A stretch of 64,000 bases of DNA from Nannochloropsis salina CCMP1776 (Eukaryota; Sar; Eustigmatophyceae; Eustigmatales; Monodopsidaceae): positions 1,380,875 to 1,444,874 of the forward strand of contig SDOX01000021.1 in the NCBI GenBank assembly GCA_004565275.1, written 5' to 3'. Position numbers and translations under genes: made by a program. Positions within the stretch are counted from its first letter, which is position 1. The number at the start of each line of letters is the position of its first letter. Positions 1 to 58,365 of the stretch are shown in pieces. Under the pieces are notes generated by a model, which saw only the letters and a program-made list of their open reading frames with translations, was not told the DNA's origin and searched no databases.

Positions 1-3000
1 GGGGGGGAAAGGGCAGAATTTCGTGACTCGGCTGGACACTCGCGTACTGGAACTGGGATCCCATGGAAGCGCCCATGCGCACAACACCGTCTTCTTTCCC
101 CCGTCCCCCCCCGTCCCTCCCTCCCTCTTCCCCCTCCCTACCTGATTAGGCATGGGGCACTGATGCCCGTACTCGTACACATACATGGCGAAGAGGATAA
201 CGTCCACACCGTCGATGTTCTGGAACAGGACCAGGCACTTGCTCTTGGCGGGGAACTCGCTCGGGTACTCCTACCCGGGAAAAGAAAGGCGCGACAGGTC
301 GGTTGTAGAACATTCTCTCCAGATGGCCACAGAAGTGGGCTTATCGCCTTCCCATGCAACGACATCCCCTCGGCCGTAGCCCATCGACGTCCTTACAGGC
401 GTCAACACTCACTCACTCCCTCCCTCCCTCCCTCCCTCCCGTCCTCCCTCTCTCCCTTCCTCCTTCTTTCCCACCCTTCGTCTCCCTACCTGAGCGGCAT
501 AGCGTTTGAGCATCCGTTCTCGGACTGGGAAAGTCTTGTCGGTCGAAAGGACTTGCCGAATGTAAACGGCGTTGCGCTCCATTTCTTCCACTGAGCATGA
601 TGGGGAGGGAAGGGAAGAGGGAGGGAGGGAGGGGAAGAGGGAGGGAGGGAGGGGAAGAGGGAGGGAGGGAGGGGAAGAGGGAGGGAGGGAGGGGAAGAGG
701 GAGGGAGGGAGGGGAAGCAAAAGGGCATGAATTCCACGGGCCTACAGGCTAACATGAGAATAATAAGGCAATCTTAAGGCAAACGGGGCTTGAAACGTAA
801 AGAAAATGCCAGGATATATATATATAACGTATGAAGGGAAGAATAGGCATTGTGTACTGTGTACATCCAAGTACAGTGAGGGGAGCGAAAAGGGAAGGGA
901 GGGAAAGAGGGAAGGAGGAAGGACACGTGTACTGTGTACATCCAAGTACAGTGAGGGGAGCGACAAGGGAAGGGAGGGAAAGAGGGAAGGAGGAAGGACA
1001 CGTACCGATCTCAGTGAGGGGAGCGAAAAGGGAAGGGAGGGAAAGAGGGAAGGAGGAAGGACACGTACCGATCTTGTAGCGTTGCTCCTTCTTCGCGTCC
1101 CTCACACGGGCCTCATAGCACTCCTGGTACCTGGCATGCACTCTGATGAGGAGGGAGGGCGACGGATCAGGGGGGGGAGGGGAGTGGAGCGTGAGAAATA
1201 AATGTTTGGGTCCCCGATTGTTTCACACTGTGCTCGGCTCCTCCCTTTGTCCTCAGTCCCCCACTTGCCCCTCCTTCCATATCGCCGTGACACGCCAACG
1301 CCCCCTTCTGTCTCCTCTCCGTCGACCCCCCCCCGCCTTTTCCCGTCCCTCCTTCCTTTCCTCCTCCCATCTTCTCCCCGCACCTCTTCTCGATGAAGGC
1401 CGAGAATTTGTTGTGCTTGATAAACTTGGCGGACAGGGGAGGCGTGGAAGGAATCCCCCCGTTCGGCATGCTCTTTCGACGTTTCAGGGTACAGGGGGGG
1501 CAATAGTACTTGACTTGCTCGCCTACAGCCAGGACAGCGTGGGGCAAGGGAGACAGGGAGGGGACGGGAGAGGGAAAGCTGTCAAGCAAAAAGAAACGTG
1601 CCCGTCGCATCCAAGTAGCTAAGGGGAGGGGAGAGGGAGGGGTGGGTAGACGTACCTTGATCGTTCCGCCCGTTGTAGAGTGCGCAGACTTGGTGCACCC
1701 ATTGGGAGCACGAATCGCAGCCGACCCAAAATTCCTCCCGAAGCTGCACGGAAAGACAGGAGGTATCCCCGAAAAACACCGAGACAGGAACAAGGCGTGA
1801 GCAAAGGAAACATTGGGCCTCCGCGTTCTCGCAAATTGCGCCTTGGCTCCTGACCCCTTCCTCCATGGGTGATGGTACGTACCTTGTCGTTCTTATCCTT
1901 GATGAGCTCGCTTTTCTTCAGCACGGTCCCGCCGATATGGATCTCCTCTGTGTGTGTATTGGCCTCGTTCATGTCCACGTCTGGGCCTCGTCTTTGGGAC
2001 CGGTCCGGCCCATGTTCCCTCCCTCCCTCCCTTCCTCCCTCCCTTCCTACCTCCTTTGATTTCCTGGTAGCAGGGGACACACCAATGGTACTGGTTCCGC
2101 CCGCCGCTGTAGAAATAGGAGCCTCGACGTATACGACTGCTGTTGCATGATCCTGAGGTTGGGGGAGAGGGCGGAGGGCGATACAAGGTTACGTGCCAGG
2201 AAAGCAATCCTTTGCGACGGAGCATGTCGCATGGTGCTATTCCACCTTCGTCCTGTCCTCTTTCCCGCCCTCCCTCCCTTCCTCCCGTCCTTTCTCCCTC
2301 CCTCACCGTTACAATAGTAGACAGGCGGCTCAAAATAGAGTTTCTCGCAACCACATAGTAGGCAAGACTCCCCCCTGTCCCATGCGAAGCGACGAGAAAT
2401 GGAGGCGTCAGTACCACGAACGTCGCTCCTAGAGCCATGTTCCACCCTGTTCTCCCTTTCTACGGCCTTACCACACAATCCTCCGTCCTCCCCATTGCCC
2501 CCCCCCGGTAATGACCCTGAACCCCTTCCCCTCCCCCTCCCCCTCCCCTCCCGCTTCTCTCCGCCCTCCCCTTCTGTTAGGTTTACCTGTTGACAGTCAG
2601 CTGCTGTTCCCTCTTAACCTCCTCCTCCAGCTGCCTGAAGTCCTTGAAGAAACTGTCCCGCATGTCCTTGGCCATCTGTAGGGGCCAGCAAGGAGGGAGG
2701 GAGGGTGAGAGGGAGGGATGGCACACCCACCAGACTTCTGTATCCTGCAATTTCTTTTCCGTGTCCCCCCTTTGCCCGTCACTCCATTTTCGTCGTAGAA
2801 CCATCCATTGCTCCGGTCTGCCCCTAACACGATCCTCTCTCTGTCAACCTCCTCGTCTGCCTCCTCCTCATCCAGCCTTGACCTGCCCCCTGTTCCCGCC
2901 CGTTTTTCATCCGTTACCTTGTGGATTTCTTGCCCCGGGGGGTTGTAAAGGATGGCATTGTCGAATGTGAGCTTCACGTCCGCTGCCACCTTTTCCAGCT

Positions 3001-4051
3001 CTGTGTAGGAGCCGTTTTCCAAACGACGCTTGACCTGATCGAGGAAGAACGGAGGGACGGAAAGCCATGGTCAGCACGGGCTGGGAAAGCAAAAGGGCAA
3101 CTTGACCAACAAGGGGCAATGTCCGTTTTTTGAAAAGGGGGGGAATATAAGAAAAGGCACAGACAAAAGAGGGAAAAAGATGGAGGGAAAGTAGAGGACA
3201 TGGTGCGAACAGCAGCACTGGTCATATTTTGGGGGGGGGTGGGGGGCGGGGCGCGATGGGGAGGGAAAGCGCCTCGACACAAGCCGACGTACAGTGCCCA
3301 AGTCCATGGGATACTTGATCACATCGAAGTAGTCCGGGAGCCCGAGCTTGAGTGGGTCCACGGGCTCTTCAAAGATCCATCCATACTCCGATTTCAGCTG
3401 TTTTACCACGAGGGGGAGAACCTAGGGGAAAGGGGGGGGACAGGGCATGTGAGAGGAGAACATAGTGTGCGGCATCCAGGTATGCAGGAGCGTCATGAAA
3501 GCGGGGAACACAAGGAGAAACAAACAAAGGGACCGCGTGCTCGGTAGATGTCCTTGAACGCACCTTAAGTTTCAACTTGGTGGGAGTCCAAAACCCTCCC
3601 CCTGAACGCAAAGAGGCCATGTGCGCCTTGATTTGTGCGTCCGTGAAGGAGTTTACCAAGGACACGGAGTCTTCAAACCGCTGCAACGCCGCCGCGGAGG
3701 GTGGGGCAGGTACGCCGGGCACCTGTCTCCCACCGCCGCCAGGACGTCCGCCCGCGCCGGCCCCGCCGGCAGCCTGTGAGAAGCCTTGACCAGAGCCAGG
3801 CAAAGGCACCAGGGGACGGTAGCCGCCGTTTTTCGTGGGCTCTACCGGCACCCATCCATGGCTTTCCGTCTGGATCATGAGGCCATTCGGAGTCTTGGCT
3901 ACGACTGGCATTTTCCCTGAACTGCTCCGGGGCCCAGCTTTGCTACCCGCTCCACCCGCAGTGCCCAAGGCGAGGGCTTCCCCGCCTGCTCGCACCCCTC
4001 CTCCCCCACGTCCTGCTCCAGGAACCGGCACGGAAGCCAAATTTTGTGAGC

Positions 4052-35785: not shown

Positions 35786-37813
35786 TTACTGCGACTCTCC
35801 CAACTGGTTTGCTTTTCCCTCACGATCCTCCACGCTTCCTTCCCACCCCTCTTCCATCGACGCCTCCCCGCCCTCGACCTTCCCACCCTCCCCCCCATTG
35901 TCTTCCTTCTCTTCCTCCCTGTCTCCACCCTTTTTTTCGGTGGCTCCCTCCCACCTGCCCTTCTTTTCCTCCCGTATGCTCCGCCCGCTCGTACCCAGGG
36001 TCCAAGCACTCAACACCGCGCCTATAGAACCACACATCGGGCCTAGCCAATAGACCCAAAGCCCCTTCCCCTGCTCCTTGTCCGCACTCCAAGCATAGAG
36101 GCCCGTGACGACGGCGGGATTCAACCCTCCCCCCGAAATGGAGGCGGATGCGAGCAAGCCGCCCGTCAAGACAGCCCCGACCGCCAGTCCAAAGTATGCC
36201 TGTTGCTGAGTCCCGGGGGGGCGCTGGGAGAGGATGGTCAAGACCAAGAGGGTGGTGAACACGGCTTCCGCGCCCCACGCGTCTGGGTATCCGTGAGAGA
36301 CCCCGCGGTGTGGAAGGGCCTTCTTACAACGGCCACGACCGAGGGCGGACCGAGCCAGCCCCCCCGCGAACAGAGCGGCGAGGAGTTGCACCGTTACGTA
36401 GGCCAGGGCCCTGGGAATTTTTTTCGTCCGAGGCCGGAAAAGAAAAACCCCGAGGGTAACGGCTGGGTTGAAGTGGCCGCCGCTGACGTAGGCCCCGGCA
36501 AAGACAAGGCCGGCCAATAAAAGACCGCTGGAAACGGCCAAGGTAAGGGGGGAGGCTGGGGTGGAGGAGCTGCTGCTGAGGGCGAGAACTAGGGTGAGGA
36601 GGAAAGCTCCCTGGAACTCCGTCACGTAGGCCCTGGCACGGCATGATACCCGGAGAAGTGTCCGCGCATAGGCAGGTGGGGAGGTAGCTGGGTAGGGCGG
36701 GAAGGAGGTCGCCTCGGAAAGAAGGGCTTCTCGGTCCTCTGTCACTCCTTCCCTCTGCGCTCTCTCCCCCTGGGAGGGTCTCCTCCTGTGTTGACCGTCC
36801 GACGCCCTTCCATACGGGTACAAGGCTTCTGCTGCATTGACCACGTAAAATGCACAAGCCGCGATTAAACCGCCCGCCATCGGCAACATCCAACGGACCC
36901 ACAGCCCCGCCTCCCCCTCCCCTTGCCCCCCTCCCTCCCCCTCGTCCTTGTGCCTGGCAGCCACATAAAGCCCAGAAGACACCGCCGGATTCATGACCGC
37001 CCCCAGAGAGGCCCCTGTCACCAACGTCGCACATATCGCCACGCCCGCATAGGCATTGGGTTGCTGTGCTCGGGCAAAAGCGGTGTGGATCACCACCATG
37101 ACCAAGGCGTATGTAAAGCTGATCTCGACCAGGGCTAGCTCCCCGGTAACTCCCTCCGGCAAGAATGGATCTGCTAGTTGATCAGAGGCAGCCAGACCTC
37201 GGGCCAGGTAGGCTCCCCCGATGGCCCCGACGGTTTGGCTGGCTATGTAAACCAGGGCCCGGAAAGGGGAGACTCGTCCGATGAGAAGTAATGCGAAGGT
37301 CACCGCCGGGTTGTAATGCGCACCCGATATCGGAGCGCCTGTGTTGATCATGGCCAATAAGACGGCGGCGACTCCAATGGCGGTCGTAAGGCTGTCTACG
37401 CCTGCGGCGGGACGGGAGAGCAGACCAACTACCAGCGTAAGGGTGAGGGTACCAAGAGCTTCCGTCATGGGAACAGCTAGAAGATTTTGCAGGACCGTAA
37501 ATGTTTGAGAGCAGCATTGCGCACCCGCTGTGAGGTATCGGCGATGCTTGCGATGACCCTCTAAGACCTTCTTGTCACCGTGCTCTTCTGATAAATGACT
37601 TGTATTTCTTTCAGCGTTGCTATGACCAGCCGACGCAGTTTCCTCTTCTGACATGGCCTGCGACTCTATGTCATTGTCTTTACCCTTGTTATCCTGGGCA
37701 GGCATCAATGGCTGCTTCGACTCGTCCTCTACTTGGTGAGGTGCTGAGGATGTCCGCGGCATAATGATATCCACAACACCCCCGGAAGCCGGATCCCTGA
37801 CCAAGGAAAGCAC
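35786..37813 (-). CDS. Double aquaporin: two MIP channels in one polypeptide
   Basis: Intronless 675-residue frame with two complete major intrinsic protein (aquaporin) units head to tail. After an acidic cytosolic N-terminus of ~100 residues, unit 1 has GAHYNPAVTF (loop B) and LGAVMNPAVSSG (loop E). A ~60-residue charged linker follows, then unit 2 with SGGHFNPAVTLG and SISGGGLNPAVVTG. Each unit shows six hydrophobic helices, so 12 are expected in total. All four NPA boxes are intact. In both units the residue after loop-E NPA is Val instead of the Arg (NPAR) that forms the aromatic/arginine filter of water-selective aquaporins, so substrates may differ from water. The C-terminus is a long Glu/Lys/Gly tail. 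Gene diverges from the kinesin gene. Confidence 0.9.
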   Translation of the reverse strand: MLSLVRDPASGGVVDIIMPRTSSAPHQVEDESKQPLMPAQDNKGKDNDIESQAMSEEETASAGHSNAERNTSHLSEEHGDKKVLEGHRKHRRYLTAGAQCCSQTFTVLQNLLAVPMTEALGTLTLTLVVGLLSRPAAGVDSLTTAIGVAAVLLAMINTGAPISGAHYNPAVTFALLLIGRVSPFRALVYIASQTVGAIGGAYLARGLAASDQLADPFLPEGVTGELALVEISFTYALVMVVIHTAFARAQQPNAYAGVAICATLVTGASLGAVMNPAVSSGLYVAARHKDEGEGGGQGEGEAGLWVRWMLPMAGGLIAACAFYVVNAAEALYPYGRASDGQHRRRPSQGERAQREGVTEDREALLSEATSFPPYPATSPPAYARTLLRVSCRARAYVTEFQGAFLLTLVLALSSSSSTPASPLTLAVSSGLLLAGLVFAGAYVSGGHFNPAVTLGVFLFRPRTKKIPRALAYVTVQLLAALFAGGLARSALGRGRCKKALPHRGVSHGYPDAWGAEAVFTTLLVLTILSQRPPGTQQQAYFGLAVGAVLTGGLLASASISGGGLNPAVVTGLYAWSADKEQGKGLWVYWLGPMCGSIGAVLSAWTLGTSGRSIREEKKGRWEGATEKKGGDREEEKEDNGGEGGKVEGGEASMEEGWEGSVEDREGKANQLGESQ

Positions 37814-38315: not shown

Positions 38316-41300
38316 ATGGGAGATTTTCATGTTTGCGACTGGCTCGAGTCCGTCGGTAAGTGTTTCATACTTTTCTAGGCTTATGATTACTTCGCGTGTC
38401 TGACCGTCACCCTCCTTCCACGATATTTCAGGCCTTGGGTACTCGATTCCTAGATTTCAAGAGCTAGGTATATGTACCCCTGAGAGATTGGCTGCGTTTC
38501 CCTTTTCTGACTATGATCGAGCTGGCGTCGTGGATATCAACCATCGAAGAAAGCTTTTTTTCCTGATCCAGCGCCTCAACCTGGCTCTTGAGGAACAGAC
38601 GAGAAAGATTGGGAGAGGGGGTAAGATTAACGCCGTATGCGCGCACATTATTTTTCGAAACCATGCGCACTCTGACGTGTGCTCCCCGATTCTCAGCATG
38701 ATTGTTTTATTTCCCATTTCGCATGTCAACACGCTCGCGTACAGTTCCTACAACAAAGCGCGATGAAGACGAAGCCTTATCTGCGTCTCAGTATGCTCAA
38801 GTAATGAATGTGGATCTATCATCTATTCATCTTAATTGTGAAGTAAACGGACAGACATTGCCGGACAGATTAGATGAGGACGGACACGGAAGCGAACATG
38901 AAAGCCTCCTAATCACGAAAAGAGAAGACGGTAGCTCCTCTAAACCCTCGCGTCGGACCCCATCTGCACAGTCGTTGCCCGCATCCAGAGAGCTAACAGC
39001 GCTCTCCACCCAATCTATCGAAAAATATGGACCCGAGGCAGTGACGCCATTCGAAACAGCACACCTTACCTCCCGAATTCCCTCCGCCCCGCCCTCCTCC
39101 CAGTCCTCCGCCCAAACCTCCACGTCCATTTCCTCTCCTCCTGTCGGCCCGAATGCCAGCTTGCACTCGAAATTCAGCCTTTCTAGGAACTTCCTTTCCG
39201 CCATAGGTGTCCGTAAGACCAAGACCGGGCCAGTCACGGCAATCGCAGCCTCCCCGTATCAGTTTTCTATCTCCGCGGTGTACGCACGCACGGAAATGGA
39301 ACCTTCTGCCATGAGAGAGCCGCAGAGGCAGAGCCCAAATGCCAGCGCTGACCTCAGCTACAGCGGATCAAGTCTTACCAGCACCGACCCGAGCATCTCG
39401 CATGTCCGACGGAACTCCTCGCCCCTGCACCCGTACCAAGCCCTGGTGGACTGTATCCTGGAGGGGCCCGTGGACGAGACGACGATCCGGGTGGCTGTGC
39501 GGAAGCGTCCGTTGAGCGCCACAGAACGGAGCAATAAGGACACAGACATCATCGAGATCCAACATCCTCGCAACGTGGTCATACACGAGCCGAAGAAGCA
39601 GCTGGATTTGACGCCGGTGACGGAATCCCACTACTTTGCCTTTGACCACACCTTCGGCGCGGAGGTTCCGAATGACCGCGTGTATCACACGGTTTGCCTG
39701 CCTTTGGTCGTGTCCATGTTCCGTGGAGGGAAGTCCACCTGTTTTGCCTACGGACAAACGGGGTCAGGAAAGACGTTTGCGATGATGGGGGACCAAGGCA
39801 GAGAGCGGGCGGGAGGGGGAAAGGGACGGAAGGGCCACCCCACAGGGGAGGGCTGGGAGAACGCAGGACTCTACGCTCTGGCCGCCCGGGATATTTTTCA
39901 GGTCTTGGCCCACCCGGCCTTTGCCTCGCGTGGGTGGACGCTGCATGTGAGTTTCTTCGAGATTTATGGCGGGAAGCTCTTCGATTTGTTGAACCGGCGG
40001 GCGCCTGTCCGATGTTTGGAGGACGCGAGGCAGCACGTTCGATTCCTGGGACTGACGGAAAAAGCGGTGGTAAGCGTGGAGGAGCTTTTGACCACCATGG
40101 CGGAGGGACAGAGCCAAAGGTCGACGGGCTCCACAGCCGCGAATGCCGATTCTTCGCGCTCCCACGCGGTTTTGCAACTCAGCCTGAAAGGTCATGCCTG
40201 TGCAGAAAGGTCAGCGGGCAGGTCCCCGGTGACGTCCGGTCCCGAAGCGAAGAGCATGCTGCAGCACGGCAAACGGAACGTGCGTGTGAAGGATAGCAAC
40301 CAGGGGAGGCTAAAAGAGCCGGTCATTGGCAGCTTCTCGTTCATCGATTTGGCAGGTTCGGAACGCGGCGCTGACACGCGCAATACCGAGAAAGCGACCC
40401 GGATGGAGGGGGCGGAGATCAATACCTCGCTCTTGGCGCTGAAAGAAGTGATTCGAGCGCTGGACCGAAAACAAAACCACACGCCCTTCCGGGGTAGCAA
40501 GCTCACCCAAGTCTTGAAAGACTCCCTTGTTGGTGCCAGGGCAAAGACCGCGATGCTTGCTTGCATTGCCCCCGCCCTCTCCAGTTGCGAGCACACGCTC
40601 AACACCTTGCGCTATGCGGATAGGGTCAAGGAAAACGACGCCTCCGCCGTGCCCGGTCCGGAGAACCTCCTCGCTCCCATTGCCACGCCCGTGACCTGGA
40701 ATAAAGATAGCCGAGACACCCCAGCCGGGGGGGAGCATAAGCCCTCTTCAATCGGCAGGTCGATGCTCACATCCTCCCTCAGCAATGAAGAGGAGTGCGT
40801 CCTTGCCGTCTCCGCCGAGACGGGGGGCCAGGGTATGAGGAGCGGGAGGAACAGCGAAAACGCGAACTTAAGCGCGACAGTAGATGGCACAGGCAACTGT
40901 CGCTGGCCAGCTGTCTCAGCTTCAAGCCTTAGGAAAGGCCAGCAGCTTGCGTCCTTGTCGCGCACGACCCCGGGAAGGTACTCAGAGAGGTCTTGCAGAG
41001 GACGAGAGGGAGGGGGAGAGCGTTGTCATCTCCATGGGACTCACATCTTGCCAGAGTCCTCTTTGCCAGAGCTGCCGCAGATACCAAACCAACAAGGGAC
41101 GCAAACGGCGCTTCGTGGCCAACAGCCTCCGCTTTGCCCCTCCCCCGCGGTCGAGGCGGGGGACATGCAACGGTACGTAGAGCACTTGAAACAGCTGCGG
41201 GAGACCGTGTGCGTGGAGCGTGAGGCGCAACGGTGGCGACGACGGCAGCGACGGCGTCAAAAAGGGACGGAACAGGGCGCCGAAACCATCCCAGCGGAAG

Positions 41301-41617
41301 AGGAAGAGGACAATGGCCAGGAAGAAGGAGTCACGCGGAGGCAAGCGGGAAAGGAGGAAAAGGCTGAGAAAGCAGCAGTGTATCGCACGGCCACGCACGT
41401 GCTGATCGGGGCCCACCAGAGTGCGCATGTCCAGCTATTGTCTCTCCTGCGCGAGGAGGTCGACCTGCTGCAGACTGCAGAGGGGGACCGACAAGACCTG
41501 ATCCTGTACTTGGCTTCCACGGAGAAGGTTCTAGAAGCTCAGAAGGCACAGACGGAAAGTCTAATGGCCCACGTGCAGCGGGTTAAAGCCGCCCGGTCGG
41601 AGCTCCTGGAGGGCTAG
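38316..41617 (+). CDS. Kinesin-13 (KIF2/MCAK-like) microtubule depolymerase
   Basis: Internal-motor kinesin that depolymerises microtubule ends in spindles and cilia. Exons 38316-38355, 38432-38620 and 38745-41617 join in frame to 1033 residues. Exons 1-2 encode a SAM-like helical domain (CDWLESVGLGYSIPRF, LGICTPERLAAF, RRKLFFLIQRLN). The motor follows a disordered region: IRVAVRKRPLSATERSNKD, VHEPKKQLDLTPV, P-loop AYGQTGSGKTFAMMG, switch I NADSSRSHAV, switch II DLAGSERGAD, and INTSLLALKEVIRAL. VRKRPL plus the KKxLDL neck region mark kinesin-13. A charged low-complexity insert sits just after the P-loop. The C-terminal third is disordered then predicted coiled coil (SAHVQLLSLLREEVDLLQ). Start chosen from exon joining. 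Confidence 0.93.
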
Positions 41618-49746: not shown

Positions 49747-50455
49747 GAGCTGTTGGTGTTGTACGGAGAAGCACTGTCAAGATGAGGATACACTTCGACA
49801 CATTCACGTTTTTCCCAGATGAAACGCCGCCGAAAAAATAACGCGTGGGGAGAAAGACGTAAAAAAAACAAGGAAAAAGATCTGAAGCCCCGGGTGCCAG
49901 AAGGCGCGTCGTTGTCTTGAGAGCACCAGCCACCAAGGAGTTCCAAAACCACGAATATAAGCGCCAACCCTCGCACACCACATTTTAAACACGTCTGCTC
50001 GCACACCTGACCTCATGCAATCAATTATCTTCCGCGTGTTGGCTTCATTTCCCCTTGAGGTCTCGCTGTAAAGGCGTCACGGAGGTCCCAACACGTACGT
50101 GGTGTTTCTTCGATCTTTCTGAGCCCTACAGATTGAGGCCGATATCACCTTTTTATTCGAGGCAAGCCCGCACTTACAATTGTAAAGACTCTCAAATCGG
50201 CACACTTCAAGGGGGAAGCACAGAAACGGGATGTGTTGGGTTACAAGCGGCTTAATTTGCGTTGGCACGCTCTCTGCGTGTGACAGCTGTTGGCACGTTT
50301 TTGAGAGGTACCTGAAGATCGATAAATTCGCTGTCTATGCGTCGAACCCCAGCAACCCAACAACACCACGGCATCCCCCAAAAGTTTGCAACAAATCAAT
50401 AAAAATATATAGTTGTTACCAACGACCTGTTATGATAAATATCTATCTGCTACAG
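49747..50455. promoter_or_regulatory. Divergent promoter region shared by two HAD genes
   Basis: About 700 bases between start codons of two divergently transcribed plastid HAD genes, free of GGGA repeats. No specific motif recognised. Confidence 0.5.
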
Positions 50456-51583
50456 ATGCCGCCCTTTATAACACGGTTTCCCGGTTTAACGAGGTCCCTC
50501 GGCACCCTTGCCACTGGTATAACATTTCTCGCTTTGATTCCCTCCTCTTGTAACGCCTTCCTCGCCCCGGGGTCACCGGCTCGATACCATATGAAAGCAA
50601 CATCAACTCAAGCTATGAAGGCCGGCACCAGCATCGTCCGCCGCAGTCAGGGGCTTCGTGAGATAGTCGACCAATATGATGTGTTTCTCATCGATCAGTG
50701 GGGTGTAATGCACGACGGTCACGCCGCCTATCCGGGGGCGGTGGAGTGCATGCAGTCAATTTTGGCCGCCGGCAAGTATGTTATCCTCCTGTCTAACTCC
50801 TCGAAACGCAAAGCCGGCTCGCTCGCGCGTCTTAAAGACATGGGTTTTCAGCCTGAAAAGTACTTGGACATTATCACGTCGGGCGAGCTCACTTACCTTG
50901 GCCTCAAGCCACCACGCAATTCCCCTTCTTACGCAAATATACGAGGCACAAATGTCCTTGTCTTCGGATCCGGAGATGAAGACCGGGAGTACGTGAAATC
51001 GTTGGGCTGTCGGCTTTCTCCGGTGGAGGCGGCCGACTTTCTCTTGGCCCGCGGTCCGTTCACAATACTGGATTCACCCGACCCTGCCACGCCGCCTCAA
51101 ACGTTTGGACCGGGTCGAAACCTGCACGAGAGCGCAGAGTTTGAAGCGGTGGCCGCCAAAGCCGTAGCACGGGGGCTGCCCATGATTGTGTCCAATCCCG
51201 ACATCGTCCGACCTGGCGGCGACAACGACCCCATGCCCGGGCTTCTCGGGCGTGCCTATGAGGAGAAAGGGGGCCAGGTCATGTATGTAGGCAAACCATA
51301 CCCTTTGGTGTATCAAGAGTGCCGAAAACGTCTCGTGGGGCTGAAGCCGGCCGGGGGAAAGGCGGATTGGAGGATATGCGCAATCGGAGACTCGATGTGG
51401 AACGACGTGAAGGGCGCAGTGGACGAGGGCTGGGCGTCTGTCCTGGTCACGGATGGGATCCACGCTGAATCTTTGGGGGTACGACAGGGCTCTGGGAAGG
51501 AAGTGCCTGGTGAAAGCCTAGATTTCTTCCTGGAAGGCTTCGCATACCGGCCAAGCCACACAATACCATGTTTTCGATGGTAA
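50456..51583 (+). CDS. Plastid-targeted HAD-IIA hydrolase (TIGR01459-like)
   Basis: Intronless HAD phosphatase of subfamily IIA. The leader is LATGITFLALIPSSC-NAFLAPGS, a signal peptide with Phe-led transit peptide for plastid import. Motif I is DVFLIDQWGVMHDGH (DxWGVxxDG as in TIGR01459), motif II LLSNSSKRK, the cap region holds SGELTYLGLK and VFGSGDEDREYV, the Lys motif is GKPYPLVYQ, and motif IV is AIGDSMWNDVKGAVDEGW. In TIGR01459 proteins the substrate is unknown. About 375 residues from the Met at 50456; an in-frame Met at 50432 would add eight residues, and a frame open to 50231 is probably 5' UTR. It diverges from another plastid HAD gene. Confidence 0.88.
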   Translation: MPPFITRFPGLTRSLGTLATGITFLALIPSSCNAFLAPGSPARYHMKATSTQAMKAGTSIVRRSQGLREIVDQYDVFLIDQWGVMHDGHAAYPGAVECMQSILAAGKYVILLSNSSKRKAGSLARLKDMGFQPEKYLDIITSGELTYLGLKPPRNSPSYANIRGTNVLVFGSGDEDREYVKSLGCRLSPVEAADFLLARGPFTILDSPDPATPPQTFGPGRNLHESAEFEAVAAKAVARGLPMIVSNPDIVRPGGDNDPMPGLLGRAYEEKGGQVMYVGKPYPLVYQECRKRLVGLKPAGGKADWRICAIGDSMWNDVKGAVDEGWASVLVTDGIHAESLGVRQGSGKEVPGESLDFFLEGFAYRPSHTIPCFRW

Positions 51584-56828: not shown

Positions 56829-58365
56829 TTACAACATTTGCCGTTTCGCATTAGCTGGGTTAAAATTGCCCCACGCTCCACCGTCTTTAGCATAATAGTC
56901 CATCGGGTAGCTCGCCTCGGACCAGGCCTGCCCTCCCAAAGCGACTTCAAGCTCGTAGGCTGTCAGTACAGGATTCGGAAAGAAGTGCCCCCAATCAATC
57001 GACAGCCGGGGACAAGCCACCTGCACCCAGGCGTCTACCTCTTCATGTAAAAGCTCCAACTTCTGAGGCGTAATTTCCGATAAAAGCAAGATAAATGCCT
57101 CTCTCCCTGACCTTTCCAGTAGGTCCATCGCATGTTTTACCAATGCAGGGTTTCCCTGCCTTCCTAATGTACCCAAAATGACACCCCAGCGTTTGGCCAC
57201 CTTCCCAGCGGCCACGGCTTGTTTGCGAAGGCGAAGCATTTTCGGGGTGTCGTAGATTTCTCGGGTCAAAGTTTTATCGTAGGGGTCGTAACGGTAGGAT
57301 TCTAAGGATGGGTTCGCAATCATCGCTGCTTCCAAGTGGAAGCGCCCGTCGGCAACAAAGATCAATGTATCGAACTTTGTGGCGTCCAGCGTAGGGGATG
57401 TGCATCCCAGTACCTCTCCTGCTGAGAGGGGCCGCGCCTGAGGGACGTAGACGGAGGCAAAGTGGTCTGACAGCGCTTTGGCCGACTCGTGCACAGCGGA
57501 GATGAACTGAATCGTTCCCATCAGACAGACCCTCCGAGGCGCTTCCAGGTTCCGACGGAGGCTGTCGATCAAATGGGCGGCGTCCACGCTGATCTCGACG
57601 AAGACATAGAGCGCCTTGAGCGCGGTGCAGGTGACCGGCACCAGACAGCTGTGTCCGTAGTGGACCAAGAAATCCGCTCCTGCCGCCTTTGCCCCCAGGT
57701 CATCGATACAGCACGCGCCGTAGGTGACGTCGCCCATCACCACCACCTCCTCCACCGAAGGGACGTAGCGCTCCATGATATCGGCCAACGTGCAGGCGTA
57801 CATCAAGAGTCCCTCGGGAAACTGGAGCGCCACGCATGTGGCTCCCGCTTCTCGGAGCCGCCATATCGTCTTGTGCACCTCAAAATTGTAGTTGGACGGC
57901 AGCTGTGCGATGGCTTGAGCCAAGGCGGGGTCTTCAAGGATATCGACAGGAATGCGTTTGACCTTGCTGACAAAGCGCTGAGGGCAAAGAACGTTAAATT
58001 GGGAGTGCGAGGGTATAAGATATATGTGTATACAAAGTCACTTCGATTGTAAATCGGTTTGGAAAGGCTGTAAGCATGCTTCGTTGATGATACCCCCGCG
58101 GGTGGAGAGGATTGACTTCGAGGCACGTTCACTTCTACAAATCAATCTTCACCGTTTGTGTATCCGATGTCGACAGCAAACACTGCGTTTACACACTACG
58201 ATACTGATTTAAGCCAGGAAACAAATTATTGGCGTTGGAGGGAAGAATCACCTTCAAAGGTCGTCGGGACGCGGGGCCGGAAGAAGAGCTAGGGACGAGT
58301 TCCCCGGACGTCGGCTGTGATATTGAGGTGGCTGGTGTCGTTGTAGGCAAAGGTGCCTCATCCAT
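56829..58365 (-). CDS. DPH1: Diphthamide synthase subunit DPH1
   Basis: 2-(3-amino-3-carboxypropyl)histidine synthase subunit 1, a non-classical radical SAM enzyme that with DPH2 starts diphthamide formation on eEF2. Exon 58365-58252 (MDEAPLP... to ...RRPLK) joins in phase 0 to exon 57977-56829, starting RFVSKVKRIPVDILEDPAL; total ~420 residues, normal for DPH1. Signatures: LPSNYNFEVHKTIWRLREAG, FPEGLLMYACTLADI, GDVTYGACCIDDLGAKA, DFLVHYGHSCL, MIANPSLESYRYDPYDKTLT, GVILGTLGRQGNP and VQVACPRLSIDWG. Cys residues in YGACC, GHSC and ACPRL are the expected 4Fe-4S ligands. No ATG exists at the start of exon 2, which supports the upstream exon; an earlier in-frame Met at 58497 cannot be excluded. 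Confidence 0.94.

Follow-up and report, generated by a model that had tools for sequence, protein, structure and literature searches.

Aquaporins are known as tetramers of separate chains with one pore each, and subunits that have been linked in the laboratory fix the partners within the assembly. On the minus strand of the 64,000-nucleotide stretch of Nannochloropsis salina DNA that was analysed (the window), a single gene had been described, from the letters of the sequence, as two complete aquaporins in one chain. A natural fusion would fix channel partners as linked laboratory subunits do and would allow a direct test of the rule of four equal pores.

One open frame with two MIP units

Starting at a GTG, the frame (Table 1) comprises 675 open codons, or 683 when counted from stop to stop, and the latter length is expected by chance with a probability of about 1e-10 at the local base composition in a crude single-base model. 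The GTG is preceded by eight sense codons and then by an in-frame stop. The first ATG is codon 18 (position 37762), and the product is likely to comprise 658 aa, barring extra residues from an upstream exon. Pfam detected MIP alone in the frame, in two stretches (2e-51), and the separated halves both matched the MIP profile (PF00230, cut-off 25 bits), with 90.2 bits for the N half and 99.2 bits for the C half.

With two MIP domains over the cut-off in one open frame, the claim of two complete aquaporin-type units in one gene was borne out. The finer points of the preliminary description were recovered as well: the four NPA boxes are present, each of them reading NPAV, the valine behind the loop-E box of both units can be read directly from the sequence, and the stated number of about 12 hydrophobic helices corresponds to 12 hydropathy peaks, six in each half (19-residue window). 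The gene had also been called intronless. This holds across the two units, where no splice is needed; for the gene as a whole, an upstream exon is possible.

By their G+C content at the three codon positions both MIP units are unlike both flanks, and the linker between them carries no codon-position signal (0.65, 0.65 and 0.63). Measured between hydropathy peaks, TM6 and TM7 are about 67 residues apart. The linker is hydrophilic and is presumed to be cytosolic. It contains DREALL, a putative motif similar to dileucine sorting signals.

Table 1. Coordinates of the double MIP genes and of the features within the window gene (positions are those of the window unless a locus is named)
Feature	Position	Strand	Basis or remark
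Double MIP of the window, contig C57	35786-37813	-	PF00230 pair
Coding sequence from first ATG, 658 aa	35786..37762	-	ORF + Pfam MIP
N-terminal MIP unit	36809..37498	-	residues ~106-335 of 675-aa frame
NPA box 1 (loop B, N unit)	37304..37312	-	NPAV, residue 168
Shortened stretch from TM5 to second NPA, N unit	36992..37012	-	five residues shorter than in 79/80 MIPs
NPA box 2 (loop E, N unit)	36983..36991	-	then Val, residue 275
Linker between MIP units	36638..36808	-	in frame, Arg-rich in first part
C-terminal MIP unit	35996..36637	-	residues ~393-606 of 675-aa frame
NPA box 3 (loop B, C unit)	36461..36469	-	NPAV, residue 449
NPA box 4 (loop E, C unit)	36113..36121	-	then Val, residue 565
C6 double MIP, 522 aa	L013 2870-4438		PF00230 pair
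C93 double MIP, 550 aa	L014 2189-3841	+	PF00230 pair

Double and single MIPs in the same genome

In a search with PF00230, the genome to which the window belongs (26.5 Mb, 103 contigs) had 12 matches; all but one passed the cut-off. Half of the 12 form pairs within three long frames, namely the window gene on contig C57 and two further double MIPs on contigs C6 and C93. The halves of the C6 double reach 55.9 and 86.7 bits and those of the C93 double 33.4 and 39.5 bits, all over the cut-off of 25. In these two frames the linkers are short, with about 30 (C6) and about 17 (C93) residues between TM6 and TM7 as judged by hydropathy peaks, and their presence in the same genome further backs the fusion. 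At least one paralog, C6, shares with the window gene the fusion of two MIP domains in a single open frame, and a fusion is present in C93 as well.

The two additional doubles are not as regular as the window gene, with 15 hydropathy peaks in C6 and 13 in C93. The boxes of the C6 double are NPS, NPA, NPA and NPA, and since its frame has no ATG before TM1, an upstream exon probably exists. The boxes of the C93 double are eroded (NPV, NPW, NPS and NPA); this gene may have lost its pore function or may be evolving fast.

The other six matches fall at four places, on C14, on C86 and at two sites on C55, which look like single MIPs. Three of these (C14, C86 and C55 at 1.01 Mb) have Arg after the second NPA. 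The fourth (C55 at 723 kb; L015 ~2385-3452, minus strand) apparently contains introns and shows NPS as first box and NPM followed by Ile as second. By eye, a Pro occupies its LE1 place, and as far as the filter is given in the available text of PMC4022174, it matches the published NgMIP of N. gaditana at LE1 and LE2. Among the matches found in this genome, Val after the loop-E NPA is confined to the doubles.

Selectivity filter and loop E

The positions of the selectivity filter were mapped on the AqpZ-like protein L019. The C half of the window gene has the filter S-L-G-V. In the N half, V, A and V stand at H2, LE1 and LE2, and H5 lies in a gap beside a deletion. For comparison we used 80 proteins, consisting of L019 and 79 proteins from among the matches listed. 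L081, which a loose pattern had flagged as NPAV and which was placed outside the NPAV group in the tree, was dropped from these counts. LE2 is Arg in 69 of the 80 and Val in 11, a ratio that is no census, as the set was fetched by similarity with a family query. Six of the 11 Val proteins have the filter I-A-G-V. Eight single-domain MIPs from bacteria and archaea that have Val at LE2 (L040, L041, L042, L044, L047, L048, L050 and L060) formed one group with a support of 100/99.

The missing arginine of loop E is not connected with the fusion, as Val is also found in single-domain prokaryotic relatives and, in print, in the diatom proteins TpMIP1 and ToMIP2, for which the available part of PMC4022174 gives the filter I-A-G-V. 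Val as a fusion-specific change was therefore rejected. Because 11 of the 80 comparison proteins carry it, Val at LE2 is, on the evidence of sequence comparison, a trait of a wider MIP group. In addition, some plant TIPs have Val at this position according to the sections of PMC8355241 at hand.

A second peculiarity lies in loop E itself. From the TM5 anchor to the second NPA, the window gene and the C6 double have 18 residues in their N halves, compared with 23 residues in 79 of the 80 comparison MIPs and 24 in one. By eye, the N half of the C93 double lacks this loss of five residues. The spacing of 18 residues in the two N halves is a new detail.

Age and origin of the fusion

When the halves of the window gene were compared with the genome, the N half matched that of the C6 double and the C half likewise its counterpart, both at 38%. 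A first careful tree of 40 rows included these four halves, two single MIPs of the same genome, the 12 rows flagged as NPAV and every fourth other row; a second set comprised 29 rows. The halves of the C93 double were left out of both, owing to very long branches in a quick tree. The two N halves paired with a support of 100/99 in both careful trees. The pairing of the C halves was weak, with 68/34 (40 rows) and 85/95 (29 rows). In the 40-row tree all four halves grouped with 11 prokaryotic NPAV MIPs (98/96).

Constraints were tested on the 29 rows, with groups that were chosen in knowledge of the first tree. Forcing the two halves of the window gene together cost 19.6 log units and was marginally rejected (p 0.043), and forcing the two halves of the C6 double together cost 27.1 log units and was rejected (p 0.003). 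A separate duplication inside each gene is disfavoured by these tests. As the two N halves belong together and, more weakly, the two C halves, the fusion most likely predates the duplication that separated the window and C6 paralogs, as far as this can be read from sequences. Forcing all four halves into one clade was not rejected (p 0.414). Since such a clade was neither shown nor rejected, it is possible that two already different MIPs were fused.

For the C93 double, divergence is too great for a placement. Its halves have very long branches in the quick tree, the C half next to the N halves of the other doubles (82) and the N half apart from them, which lends no support to a pattern of N half with N half.

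Comparison with described MIPs

The architecture of a double MIP is already in print. Multi-domain MIPs of ochrophytes were reported in 2024 as clade SAR IX (PMC11316224). According to the available text of that study, hmmsearch assigned at least two MIP domains, in several cases partial ones, to 1,101 of 7,541 MIPs; 624 of the 1,101 belong to SAR IX, a clade of ochrophytes and dinophyceans. Its members are described with three, sometimes four NPA boxes, and the authors ask for further scrutiny. The window gene, with its two MIP domains and four NPA boxes, fits the published account of SAR IX, a likeness by description. In the part at hand, that text does not describe a filter, a structure or a tree of separate halves for this clade. 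Among PMC11316224, PMC4022174, PMC8355241 and PMC3111385, which came from a literature search with few subscription journals in its scope, natural multi-domain MIPs are treated in PMC11316224 only, as judged from the texts available; the words fusion and tandem are absent from PMC3111385. The published hint of multi-domain MIPs in ochrophytes gains substance from the three doubles of this small genome, of which two carry the deletion in the N half.

Among single-domain proteins, the prokaryotic NPAV MIPs (for example L040, L041 and L044) share Val at LE2 with the window gene and fall into the same tree group. However, they have one domain and a loop-E spacing of 23 instead of 18 residues as in the N half. 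The diatom proteins TpMIP1 and ToMIP2 and the kinetoplastid AQPX, likened here by their descriptions in the accessible parts of PMC4022174 and PMC8355241, also lack the LE2 Arg and have bacterial MIPs among their relatives, but are listed with one filter each. The AQPX/AqpX grade is defined by the absence of the LE2 Arg and by an aliphatic instead of an aromatic residue at H2 (PMC8355241, available sections), and its channels have so far shown poor permeability for water or glycerol. In the window gene Val stands at LE2 of both halves; at H2 the N half has Val and the C half Ser, which is not aliphatic. The LIP subfamily, to which NgMIP of Nannochloropsis gaditana belongs, likewise comprises heterokont MIPs without the LE2 Arg, with Leu or Ile at this position in nine of nine members and NPM as second box in eight of nine (PMC4022174, as far as available), whereas the window gene has NPA followed by Val. 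In contrast to the classical water aquaporins of the AQP1, PIP and AqpZ type, in which LE2 is Arg, Val is present in both halves.

Relatives of the fusion were also sought elsewhere. The viral contigs were scanned with the C half of the window gene and no relatives were found. Scans with the alignments A3 and A2 yielded 21 and 18 loci, on partly shared contigs. Among the A3 and A2 loci whose frames were listed, L019 and L032 are single-domain MIPs with NPAR and L030 holds a partial MIP of 102 aa; none of the three is kin of the fusion. Of the 119 prokaryotic and viral-contig loci among the matches listed (L019-L137), 118 contain a MIP-like frame, L030 being below the length filter. Twelve frames exceed 350 aa; they contain three NP boxes at most, and none shows the boxes of a second MIP, in a set that was fetched by similarity and is no census.

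Assembly and working of the channel

The predicted structures agree with two hourglass folds. The model of the N half (pTM 0.85) has structural matches to aquaporins and shows six helices and two half-helices, as does the C half within the full-length model. The latter is only moderate (pLDDT 69.2, pTM 0.66). Its VIA rows span about residues 367-600, which is the C half, with two rows starting at 233; the best sequence matches to solved aquaporins also fall on the C half, and alignment A5 covers practically the C half alone.

We favour, with a probability of roughly two in three, a single-gene fusion of two complete MIP channels, two chains of which would form a four-pore assembly with pores predicted to lack the arginine. 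Each half would fold as an hourglass of six helices and two half-helices. Since each has six spans, both units would face the same way, and the linker would lie on the cytosolic side. Two such chains would build a tetramer-like complex with two kinds of pore at a fixed ratio of 1:1. The pores would have small or aliphatic filters without Arg, of the type common to prokaryotic NPAV channels, and on account of these filters they would probably not be strict water channels but conduits for small neutral solutes or gases. The loss of five residues would remodel the outer mouth of the N unit.

The strongest competitor, which we hold to be possible at well below even odds, shares the fusion and the assembly with this reading, so that the odds of the two overlap, and differs in the working pore: the C unit alone would conduct, and the N unit, its loop E shortened, would determine assembly in a structural or regulatory role. 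It gains from the five-residue loss beside the filter in the N halves of both the window gene and the C6 double, and from the solved aquaporins, whose best matches lie on the C half. Against this, both NPA boxes are retained in the N unit of the window gene, for which a complete MIP fold is predicted. Two separate channels could also be made from one frame by an internal promoter, an internal start or cleavage of the linker. The window linker, the longest of the three and hydrophilic, would suit this, but the corresponding segments of the C93 and C6 doubles leave hardly any room for a gene boundary; cleavage might still occur, but we consider this explanation as a whole improbable. An artefact of the assembly or of the gene model, or a gene in decay, is the least credible of these explanations, given three divergent double frames at separate loci, six halves over the Pfam cut-off, and corresponding halves that are best mutual matches in two of the three doubles.

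Starting from the favoured fusion of two complete channels, a more far-reaching version can be formulated: an obligately heteromeric channel with two pores on one chain, in which two non-identical Arg-less pores would alternate at a fixed 1:1 ratio, the N pore would be retuned or widened by the deletion in loop E, and the cargo carried across an algal membrane would be something other than water, such as CO2, NH3 or H2O2. We regard this as speculative and even somewhat less probable than conduction by the C unit alone.

At the N-termini of two doubles an acidic stretch is followed by Pro-Leu, EDESKQPLM in the window gene (37703-37729) and DEEEAPLV in the C93 double (L014 2225-2248). Like DREALL in the window linker, they are similar to endomembrane sorting signals and are regarded as putative. 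The double MIP gene is adjoined by a divergent gene for a kinesin motor (38702-41617, plus strand; Pfam Kinesin 4.3e-87). Farther along the window, a HAD-type hydrolase (50231-51583, plus strand) and a diphthamide synthesis protein (56829-57923, minus strand) are ordinary neighbours.
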